Below, piece by piece: positions 10,823-13,309 of a stretch of DNA of 64,000 bases. Each line of letters opens with the position of its first letter. Position 1 is the first letter of the stretch. The translations under genes and the position numbers were made by a program. The notes below the pieces were generated by a model. The model was not told the origin of the DNA. It did not search any database and was given only the letters and a program-made list of their open reading frames with translations. Source of the stretch: Mesorhizobium australicum WSM2073 (GTDB lineage Bacteria; Pseudomonadota; Alphaproteobacteria; Rhizobiales; Rhizobiaceae); contig NC_019973.1 in NCBI RefSeq assembly GCF_000230995.2, forward strand, positions 1,364,001 to 1,428,000, read 5' to 3'.

Positions 10823-12133
10823 ATGAAATCAATCCTCAAGCCGCTCCTGACGATTGCAGCCATGGCGCTGGGCATGACGGCCATCGTTCCGATGCCTGCC
10901 TGGGCGCTGGTCGAACTCAACGTCAACAAGGGCAATGTCGAGCCGTTGCCGATCGCCATCACCGATTTCCAGGGCGGCGACGCACTTGGCGCGCAGATTT
11001 CCCAGATCGTCACCGCCGACTTGAAGCGCTCCGGCCTGTTCGCGCCGATCGACAAGAGCGCCTTCATCGAGAAGATCGCCAATCCGGACGCAACCCCCCG
11101 CTTCGACGACTGGAAGGTGATCAATGCGCAGGCTCTGGTCACCGGCAGCGTCAGCAAGGAAGCAGACGGCCGCATCCGCGCCCAGTACCGGCTGTGGGAC
11201 ACATTCGCGGGGCAGCAGATGGCCGGTGAGCAGTTCTTCGCCAACGACGCCAATCAGCGCCGCGTCGCCCATATCATCGCCGACGCCATCTATGAGCGGC
11301 TGACCGGCGAGAAGGGCTATTTCGACACGCGTGTCGTGTTCATCGACGAGTCCGGCGCCAAGAACGCGCGCAAGAAGCGCCTCGCCATCATGGACCAGGA
11401 CGGCGCCAACGTCCGCTACCTTTCGGACGGCAGGTCGATCGTGCTGACGCCGCGCTTCTCGCCGAACCGGCAGGAAATCACCTACATGTCCTACGAGAGC
11501 GGCCAGCCCAGGGTCTATCTCCTGCAGATCGAGACCGGGCAGCGTGAACTGGTAGGCAATTTTCCAGGCATGACCTTTGCACCGCGCTTCTCGCCCGACG
11601 GCCAGAAGGTGATCATGAGCCTGCTGCGCGACGACGGCAATTCCAACATCTTCGCCATGGACCTGCGCAGCCGTTCGACGACGCGGCTGACCAACTCGAC
11701 CGCCATCGACACCTCGCCTTCCTACTCGCCCGACGGCAGCAAGGTGGTGTTCACCTCCGACCGTGGCGGTCGCGCGCAGATCTACGTCATGGGCGCCGAC
11801 GGATCGGGCCAGACCCGCATCTCGTTCGGCGACGGCGTCTATTCGACGCCGGTGTGGTCGCCGCGCGGCGACCTCATCGCCTTCACCAAGCAGAGCGGCG
11901 GCGAATTCCAGATCGGCGTCATGAAGACCGACGGCTCGGGCGAGCGCATACTGTCGTCCGGCTTCCAGCAGGAAGGCCCGACCTGGGCGCCGAACGGCCG
12001 CGTGCTGATGTTCTTCCGCGACGCCAATGGCGGCCCGAAACTGGTTTCCGTCGATCTCACCGGCCGCAACGAGCAGCCGATCCCGACGACGAACTTTGCT
12101 TCGGATCCGGCCTGGTCGCCGCTGCTGGAATAG
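10823..12133 (+). CDS. tolB: Tol-Pal system periplasmic protein TolB
   Basis: A 436-residue protein with a signal peptide ([21 protein letters not shown]). An N-terminal TolB domain ([28 protein letters not shown]) precedes a six-bladed propeller with repeated SPDG-type turns ([49 protein letters not shown]). It interacts with Pal and TolA in the periplasm. The stop is followed immediately by the left arm of the inverted-repeat element that separates tolB from pal. Confidence 0.97.
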
Positions 12134-12136
12134 AAC

Positions 12137-12586
12137 GGGAATTGGCGAACTGAAGAATTGAAGAGATGGTGAAAGCAGAGGGCTACGTTAAGCGAGCAAA
12201 GGATCTAGAGGTCTACAAGCGCGCTTACGTGGTCTCTCTGGCGGTTCACAAGGCCACCCTCGCTTTTCCCAAGATAGAGCAATACGCGCTGGCCGATCAG
12301 TTGCGGCGTTCCAGCAAAGGGATTTGCGCCAATCTGGCTGAGGGATTTGCCAAACAGAGCCACTCCAAAGCCGAATTTGGCCGGTTCATTTCGATGGCCA
12401 TAGGATCGTGCAGTGAAGTGGAGACGTGGATTTCATACGCGTTCGATCTCGAATACATCTCGCAGGCGCAACGGGACGAGTGGCTACAATCGTATGGCCA
12501 GGTGTACGGAATGCTGGTGAACCTCAGAGTGAAGCTAGGGTGACCATCCTTCTTCAATTCTTCAGTTCTCCAACTCTTCAATTCCC
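12137..12586. mobile_element. Inverted-repeat-bounded element carrying a four-helix-bundle gene, between tolB and pal
   Basis: An 18-bp perfect inverted repeat (12147-12164 with 12551-12568) is extended outward by GGGAATTG/CAATTCCC (12137-12144 with 12579-12586) and inward by GATGG/CCATC (12165-12169 with 12544-12548). Together these give about 31 paired bases around a loop holding the whole gene. The right arm contains an 8-base insertion relative to the left. This matches the architecture of intervening sequences in bacterial 23S rRNA, which also carry a four-helix-bundle gene in a long stem, but here the element sits between protein genes. Mobility is inferred; no transposase is present. 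Confidence 0.6.
12166..12543 (+). CDS. Four-helix bundle protein (S23/23S rRNA intervening-sequence family)
   Basis: The product has 125 residues. LEVYKRAYVVSLAVHKATLAFPKIEQYALADQLRRSSKGICANLAEGF followed by KAEFGRFISMAIGSCSEVETWISYAFDLEYIS is the classic S23/Avd-like four-helix bundle signature (DL..Y..A......FP..E.y.L..QlRRs..Si..NiaEG). The fold forms pentamers. In retroelements of the DGR type it is an accessory to reverse transcriptase; in rRNA intervening sequences its role is unknown. No reverse transcriptase is nearby. Start and stop lie inside the inverted-repeat arms. It interrupts the usual tolB-pal junction, and its less GC-rich, less biased codons than its neighbours suggest acquisition. 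Confidence 0.88.
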   Translation: MVKAEGYVKRAKDLEVYKRAYVVSLAVHKATLAFPKIEQYALADQLRRSSKGICANLAEGFAKQSHSKAEFGRFISMAIGSCSEVETWISYAFDLEYISQAQRDEWLQSYGQVYGMLVNLRVKLG

Positions 12587-12802
12587 CTCTTACATTCCCC
12601 TTTTCCATGCCTTCGTCGCGTTTTGGCCGCATTTCCGCCTAGGGTCCGCGCCAACTGTGGCCTATGACAAAACAGCTGCGGACGGGCAGCCTAAACCAAA
12701 TTTTAACCGTGTTTCTTGAATGCCGGTTAACCCAAACGTGGTTACTGGGTGATCAACGAAATCACTCGAAACATGATCACTCGAATACGAAGGAGAGGCG
12801 GC

Positions 12803-13309
12803 ATGGGCCGTATCGCAGCACTGACCAGAAACCCGGCCATGATCGCGCTGGTGGCGATGCTCGCCATCACCGGTTGCGCTTCGAAGAAGACCCCGAACAG
12901 CGCCGCTGACCTTGGCCTCAATGGCGCGGGTGCCGCAACACCCGGCTCGGCACAGGACTTCACCGTCAACATCGGCGACCGTATCTTCTTCGATACGGAC
13001 TCGACCTCGATCCGTGCCGACGCACAGACGACGCTGTCGCGCCAGGCACAGTGGCTGAACCAGTACAAGCAGTATGCCATCGTCGTCGAAGGCCATGCCG
13101 ACGAACGCGGCACGCGCGAATACAATCTGGCGCTCGGTGCCCGCCGTGCCGCCGCCACGCGCGACTTCCTGGTTTCCAAGGGCGTTTCGGCGAGCCGTCT
13201 CAAGACGATTTCCTACGGCAAGGAACGTCCGGTCGCCGTATGCGACGACATCTCCTGCTGGTCGCAGAATCGCCGCGCCGTCACCACGCTCAGCGGCGCT
13301 GGTTCCTGA
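12803..13309 (+). CDS. pal: Peptidoglycan-associated lipoprotein Pal
   Basis: The 168-residue precursor has a lipoprotein signal (MIALVAMLAITGC; the lipobox Cys is acylated). Its OmpA-like peptidoglycan-binding domain contains FFDTDSTSI, VVEGHADERGTREYNLALGARRA and SYGKERPVA. It anchors the outer membrane to the wall and binds TolB. AAGGAG seven bases before the ATG sets the start. About 215 bases separate it from the four-helix-bundle element, probably with its own promoter. Confidence 0.97.
   Translation: MGRIAALTRNPAMIALVAMLAITGCASKKTPNSAADLGLNGAGAATPGSAQDFTVNIGDRIFFDTDSTSIRADAQTTLSRQAQWLNQYKQYAIVVEGHADERGTREYNLALGARRAAATRDFLVSKGVSASRLKTISYGKERPVAVCDDISCWSQNRRAVTTLSGAGS

Follow-up and report, generated by a model that had tools for sequence, protein, structure and literature searches.

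S23 genes in the loop of tandem-repeat hairpins: an element between tolB and pal of Mesorhizobium australicum WSM2073 with the layout of a 23S rRNA intervening sequence

A discrete inverted-repeat element was found between tolB and pal of Mesorhizobium australicum WSM2073, in which a single S23 (four-helix-bundle) gene occupies the loop of a predicted hairpin whose arms repeat a short unit in tandem, in opposite orientation on the two sides. It is probably an element of the 23S intervening-sequence (IVS) type that is located in mRNA, gained repeatedly at favoured sites and decaying there to hairpins. The window is the whole stretch of DNA analysed (64,000 nt); its features at this junction are collected in Table 1, and positions given without a contig label refer to it.

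Table 1. Features of the window at the tolB–pal junction.
Feature	Position	Strand	Basis
tolB, upstream host gene	10823..12133	+	ORF list; name from the initial annotation and by eye
5' arm, GAAYTGAR-type array	12137..12165	+	repeat search, comparison with empty junctions
S23 / 23S_rRNA_IVP four-helix-bundle gene, 125 aa	12166..12543	+	profile matches, AlphaFold model
3' arm, YTCARTTC array complementary to 5' arm, terminating in CAATTCCCC	12551..12587	+	
CCCCTTTTCC, kept 3' half and T tract of native terminator hairpin	12597..12606	+	
Conserved block 5' of pal	12611..12668	+	common to filled and empty junctions
pal, downstream host gene	12803..13309	+	ORF list; name from the initial annotation and by eye

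The initial annotation had described an 18-nt perfect inverted repeat bracketing a whole S23 gene, in the layout of a 23S intervening sequence. The repeat (GAACTGAAGAATTGAAGA) was confirmed at 12147-12164 and 12551-12568 and was extended by the repeat search to 26 nt (92% identity, 12139-12164/12551-12576); the start and stop codons of the gene lie at the inner ends of the arms, and the arm and family tests bore out a discrete element of this kind. In the predicted RNA fold the arms pair around the gene, which is left in the loop (−171.9 kcal/mol, z −3.29; 0 of 100 shuffles equally low). The arm-to-arm local score was 24.5, whereas no score above 15.0 arose from 2000 dinucleotide shuffles; none of the 52 other mechanically called ORFs of the window reached p < 0.01 in the arm test (200 shuffles each). 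Both arms are tandem arrays of an 8-nt unit, GAAYTGAR, a point absent from the initial annotation; across relatives, the 5' arm consists of tandem copies of the unit and the 3' arm of copies of its reverse complement, in varying number. The element begins 3 nt after the tolB stop codon (12131-12133). Over 12050-12820, no sigma-70 consensus match was obtained in a consensus scan and no plus-strand terminator was called in a scan restricted to loops of 3-8. The conserved block 5' of pal is a possible promoter region of that gene, for which an upstream GTG start (12749) is likewise open.

The S23 ORF matched PF05635 (E 5.6e-30; 104.1 bits, cut-off 33.8) and TIGR02436 (98.2 bits, cut-off 24). The AlphaFold model (pLDDT 93.5) is made up of four long helices, i.e., a four-helix bundle, and its best PDB match was 2gsc (XCC0516); the entries 2gsc and 2rld contain five chains each, and the solved Xanthomonas member of the family is called a pentamer in a passage of PMC4990558. 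The four-helix-bundle fold is common to S23 and Avd of diversity-generating retroelements (4dwl, 8ub7 and kin; query-normalised TM 0.69-0.75, Foldseek E 0.03 or worse). Assignment of S23 as the accessory protein Avd itself was rejected (NCBIfam NF033474, 19.4 bits vs a cut-off of 80). Likeness of fold to Avd is a ground for expecting nucleic-acid binding, and by this analogy the S23 protein most likely binds nucleic acid. Median dN/dS of the intact copies was 0.089 (29 copies; 247 usable pairs of 406) at a median dS of 1.28, which places many pairs near saturation; the ratio indicates purifying selection on the gene for as long as the element stays intact, which implies some function of the protein during the life of the element.

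For comparison of the junction, tolB of the window was used as tblastn query; pal was located in 145 of 146 genomes of the genus (G122 gave no pal match) and the tolB–pal gap was read in all 145. By script, 32 gaps contained an intact element, 19 broken gene pieces, 27 arms only, and 67 were empty; three of the last (L073, L112, L122) contain remnants by eye, leaving 64. An S23 gene or pieces of it are present at 51 of the 145 junctions, in the same 51 genomes whose best match, among the matches listed, is a close homologue. The presence and absence proposed for comparison in the initial annotation was thereby found, and not its opposite, a gene present in all relatives without the repeats: the 29 intact copies of 126 codons (stop included) all have significant inverted arms.

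A terminator-like hairpin within 130 nt of the tolB stop was indicated in 58 of the 67 empty gaps (shuffle expectation 7.8), in 6 of the 27 arms-only gaps (expectation 1.7) and in 0 of the 51 filled gaps; nine empty junctions gave no hairpin by script. The type AGGGGCC-loop-GGCCCCT was seen in 7 of 8 empty examples inspected; the eighth (L043) is a different hairpin, so that the native terminator is present in at most 58. Parts of this hairpin recur around the element. In the window, the 5' arm opens with GGG, a match to the 5' half of the native stem, and 9 nt separate the end of the 3' arm from CCCCTTTTCC, which is also found 3' of the hairpin in empty relatives; filled gaps typically terminate on their 3' side in CAATTCCCC, followed by T, and at least 4 T are kept after the 3' arm in 40 of 51. 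The left boundary falls between GAAAAAGGGG and AATTGAAG in L067 (arms only), and between GCTGGAAGGGG and AATTGAGG in L130 and L125. Since the outer parts of the terminator are kept in filled gaps, the element is placed at the former terminator loop; it takes the place of the terminator and hence does not split a plain operon. The initial annotation had it dividing a tolB–pal operon, which was not supported, as 58 of 67 empty junctions already have a terminator-like hairpin behind tolB; to judge from this hairpin, the two genes would already be transcribed separately before any insertion. Target-site duplication, for which the initial annotation had suggested a search, was not seen by eye at tolB–pal, where the left flanks are altered and the boundaries inexact. 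Two further observations concern this gap. In L054 (G115) it measures 1823 nt, and the S23 element is interrupted by an ORF of 355 aa (acyltransferase-like by eye). Six empty junctions (L063, L074, L108, L088, L109, L114) contain an extra stretch 5' of the native terminator, partly palindromic by eye and possibly another small repeat family.

The two arms of a copy fit each other only modestly better than arms of different copies. In 30 intact copies, the mean fit of an arm to its own partner was 23.1 vs 20.7 to arms of other genomes (0 of 5000 permutations equally high), and the share of C-type units agreed between the arms (rho 0.45, p 0.013). Coordination of arm lengths was rejected (rho −0.35, p 0.06; 30 copies, the 3' lengths of L018 and L024 being inflated by a second remnant).

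The layout was then compared in a broad set of 80 named loci from many phyla, one of them archaeal (75 testable; L198, L210, L215, L217 and L229 dropped). Inverted arms at p < 0.01 were obtained for 55 of 75 S23 genes vs 12 of 167 control genes of the same contigs (Fisher p 9e-26), and 5 of these 12 are S23 genes themselves; direct arms at that level were obtained for 12 of 75 vs 7 of 167, and 15 of the 75 loci had neither kind. The 5' arm fitted its own 3' arm above all 74 others in 36 of 75 loci. In a Pseudomonadota set, 20 of 26 loci had inverted arms (4 of 30 dropped, three truncated and one with an inner stop). The inverted-arm layout is general among S23 genes, a point that the initial annotation did not contain; its expectation that arms and gene would be found together elsewhere agrees with these counts. 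Periodic flanks were present in 49 of 75 S23 genes vs 20 of 167 controls, the latter mostly of 7 nt; among 68 periodic flanks, the period was 7 nt in 42, 8 nt in 11 and 14 nt in 9. The flanking 60-nt stretches are G-rich 5' of the gene and C-rich 3' of it (skew +0.26/−0.27, n = 76; controls 0.00/0.02, n = 164). Stops in all three frames occur within 45 nt 5' of the S23 start in 47 of 103 loci (expected 24.9; controls 29 of 165, expected 35.5) and within 45 nt 3' of the gene in 21 of 103 (expected 12.3); three-frame stops as a speciality of the 5' arm were rejected, the 3' side being above expectation as well. As the unit length is no multiple of three, the arrays could act as a translation stop; this is a tendency and not a rule.

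Two single loci may be recorded here. The own genome contains a second, distant S23 gene (C1:2491920-2492243; L002, L166) with its own arms of a different unit (GGCAGTAG/GGCAGTAA 5', CTACTGCC 3'). At L195, heptamer arrays (CAGGCAA and CCCTGAT types) also separate non-S23 genes beside the S23 gene.

S23 genes lie between close co-directional ORFs (at least 100 codons) at 74 of 104 loci vs 45 of 103 controls (2 of 106 loci, L198 and L215, dropped); with a cruder way of calling genes the two sets hardly differed (50 of 71 vs 48 of 83). Several gaps recur (names by eye): nuoC–nuoD at six loci, a FadB-like gene and thiolase at four, with the thiolase side only at a fifth, the methylmalonyl-CoA mutase subunits at four, cysD–cysN at three, and downstream of carB at three. 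One example each of nuoC/nuoD, FadB-like/thiolase, cysD/cysN and mutase small/large subunit was confirmed by NCBIfam; at the carB gap carB alone was confirmed, the ORF taken as its upstream neighbour giving no match. Arm units differ among the members of most of these groups.

The nuoC–nuoD gap was read within one genus in the best 30 of 87 matched genomes, which are not a random sample: 19 were empty (gap −1 to 9 nt), 9 filled, and 2 (L341, L359) contained inserts of another kind (125 and 201 nt), by eye without S23 layout. All nine fills match S23, and three arm units are found among them: GTAGTGA-type (five fills, proteins 93-98% alike), GTGAATR-type (three fills, two of them 85% alike and L352 about 60% to these) and GCGAATA (L344); between arm-unit groups the proteins are 49-70% alike. 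L344 and L352 are frame-broken in appearance, and no target-site duplications were seen by eye. The fills are most simply read as independent arrivals at one site, the alternative being that arms and gene turned over in place. Hairpins as a universal target of insertion were rejected, because the gaps of the 19 empty cases are too short for a hairpin.

Arms are also found without a gene. The arm pattern GAAYTGARGAAYTGAR was present in 54 of 81 genomes of the genus (reversed control pattern, 0 of 81), and beyond tolB–pal in 46 of 80; by state of the junction the latter count was 16 of 17 (intact), 5 of 10 (broken), 11 of 16 (arms only) and 14 of 37 (empty). Among 29 pattern loci inspected, 16 are inverted pairs 22-64 nt apart, too small for a gene (one of them, L378, being the tolB–pal gap itself), and 13 have a single orientation or distant arms. 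The gene-less GAAYTGAR hairpins elsewhere are associated with tolB–pal elements overall (p 0.0009); among nearest pairs the association is weak (12 vs 4, p 0.077; 16 vs 5, p 0.027), and for intact vs decayed copies the pairs stand at 9 vs 6. A strong link of the S23 gene to the number of gene-less hairpins was rejected, only a weak one being left once relatives are paired. The own genome contains one such bare hairpin, a gene-less inverted pair of the GAAYTGAR-type unit (C1:1041414-1041492; L034, L303), apparently directly 3' of the stop codon of another gene.

Kinship with ribosomal insertions was indicated by the protein. At E ≤ 1e-16, matches among 397 genomes of the order came from two genomes of the genus and from L300, in which the S23 gene sits inside a 23S rRNA gene (RF02541, 2515 bits); by eye, 7-nt units (CAGTTGT/CAGTGGT) stand 5' of this gene and a short complementary stretch 3' of it. 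In a tree of 114 S23 proteins (few columns, rough bootstrap, unrooted), L300 and nine tolB–pal copies lie on one side of a branch with support 100/99. A search with L300 in 385 genomes of the class gave 16 matches in 8 genomes; of 15 loci checked, L395 and L398 are in 23S rRNA and 13 had no Rfam match. The 23S rRNA of the own genome gave four partial Rfam matches, from two regions. One 1.5-Mb genome (G1281) contains nine S23 copies of the subfamily related to rRNA IVSs (L396, L403-L410). By eye, seven of them have a tandem array 5' of the gene, the units differing, and L406 and L410 have none; significant inverted arms were obtained for one of nine (L405), which speaks against inverted arms as a fixed trait.

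The junction states are patchy on the tolB tree (143 rows; 2 of 145 dropped as short), in which the label "empty" requires 29 changes, at least 14 of them forced by well-supported branches. Short-tract recombination between strains could be the source of this presence and absence, and this is a point against the reading given at the outset. Carried to its end, it would mean one old insertion at tolB–pal, without mobility of its own, spread and lost only by short-tract homologous recombination, which is judged rather unlikely. Close S23 homologues, among the matches listed, are at tolB–pal in 51 of 51 genomes, as such an origin would have it and as would be surprising if the element were freely mobile; among the 397 genomes of the order (E ≤ 1e-16) the subfamily hardly occurs outside the genus, and the flanks are conserved enough to recombine. 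Thus, the broken L083 and the empty L051 differ by 1.4-2.1% in tolB windows and are identical at 208 of 214 bases downstream (filled and empty neighbours L031/L099: 0-4.1%; 202 of 212). Such matching of flanks on both sides also counts in favour of the IVS-type reading. What recombination alone does not account for is that S23 copies in tolB neighbours can diverge far beyond tolB or the immediate flanks (third-position distance of L001 and L009, 0.57 in S23 and 0.13 in tolB; S23 and tolB distances are weakly linked, Mantel r 0.13, 48 of 2000 permutations, 28 copies), nor that L018 and L024 have a two-round structure, in which the intact element is followed by a C-terminal piece of another S23 copy (34-35 residues; 71% like the neighbouring copy, 76-80% like the nearest other copies). 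The divergence among nuoC–nuoD proteins within one genus and the recurrent sites in other phyla argue in the same direction, and repeated gain would be preferred over exchange between strains.

The initial annotation had also raised the idea of an RNase III site that separates tolB from pal mRNA; as an alternative, gene and hairpin would belong to the host and would regulate or insulate tolB and pal, for example by setting their ratio through such a site. Purifying selection on the gene, the predicted stability of the stem and retention of arms after gene loss at 27 junctions are in line with it, but 67 of 145 relatives (64 by eye) are without the element and 46 have broken or gene-less forms, a terminator-like hairpin already follows tolB in most empty relatives, and the same layout is found elsewhere between unrelated operon genes; the idea is considered improbable. 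Hardly credible is a mere slippage of tandem repeats around an ordinary gene, with pairing of the arms as a by-product: direct instead of inverted arrays do occur in 12 of 75 S23 genes and periodic flanks in 20 of 167 control genes, yet inverted matching separates S23 genes from controls, and the own 3' arm is preferred to all 74 others in nearly half of the loci.

In the preferred reading, an IVS-type element in mRNA, the intrinsic-terminator hairpin of tolB would have received the element such that the outer GGGG and CCCC-T tract stayed and the small loop was replaced, in parallel to IVSs that replace tetraloops of 23S helices. From its position and orientation, the element is likely a passenger of the tolB transcript and, having no consensus promoter of its own, would be read as the tail of that transcript, in one unit with it. 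The 5' arm would supply stop codons and, for the start of S23, a purine-rich region for ribosome binding, and the 3' arm together with the kept T tract would close the transcript, as the native hairpin did. Cleavage by RNase III would be expected from the stem and by analogy with the Coxiella IVS, the stem of which is cut by this enzyme in vitro according to a passage of PMC4990558. Such elements would be gained repeatedly at a favoured site; after loss of the gene, the bare hairpin would persist.

A wider reading is put forward tentatively. S23 genes may mark a single, very widely distributed family of minimal selfish elements, represented in many bacterial phyla and on one archaeal contig. 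Its members would settle in tight gaps between co-transcribed genes or at the tips of hairpins, travel with the host transcript, spread by means of a nucleic-acid-binding ring of S23 and shed gene-less hairpins; the IVSs of 23S rRNA would be members that landed in rRNA. Arrays of 7-8-nt units would suit such elements, as they tend to give stops in all frames together with an RNA stem. The recurrence of the layout between operon genes of many phyla is relevant to the ribosomal inserts, whose origin is unexplained. If these are one line within a large group of hairpin elements seated between operon genes, their origin and spread and the role of S23 would become testable at non-ribosomal loci with clean empty sites. 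Some of the short tandem arrays that separate bacterial genes would then have a source in this group, and its members would be promoter-less parasites sheltered by conserved operons. Among the literature matches listed, none described S23 genes that form hairpin elements between genes for proteins, most subscription journals and bioRxiv lying outside their scope.

REPIN/RAYT systems and MITEs resemble the present element in that a copy of the gene and dispersed gene-less hairpins with the same arms are found in the same genomes. They differ from it in target-site duplication, of which none was seen by eye here, in the arms, which here are tandem arrays, and in the link between hairpin number and gene, which here is weak after pairing of relatives; S23 is not known as a transposase family. 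Intergenic tandem 7-mers are known from cyanobacteria as STRR heptamers. This link is a lead only, as the 80 named records include no cyanobacterium. The TAACTGA heptamers of Beggiatoaceae, cyanobacteria and Bacteroidetes are likewise intergenic tandem 7-mers, described as direct repeats and, in a Beggiatoaceae genome, as placed mostly 5' of start codons; the passages found of that account (PMC4679880) mention neither S23 nor a four-helix protein.

The closest known systems are the IVSs of 23S rRNA with an S23 ORF (Coxiella, Leptospira; helix 45). In passages of PMC4990558, such IVSs are said to have been known for more than 25 years, their origin and function being called unclear; the Coxiella IVS is described as an S23 ORF with a terminal stem and with tandem heptamers 5' of the S23 start, and its S23 as undergoing reductive evolution. 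The window element differs in its position behind a protein gene, between tolB and pal and not in a 23S rRNA gene, in its 8-nt unit, and in an S23 gene that is under purifying selection. With the 23S IVSs it has in common a terminal inverted repeat that forms a long stem with the S23 gene in its loop, short tandem units 5' of the S23 start, a patchy distribution, the taking of the small tip of an existing RNA hairpin (by analogy, the helix being here the tolB terminator hairpin and not an rRNA helix), and a protein that groups with that of the 23S-located L300.
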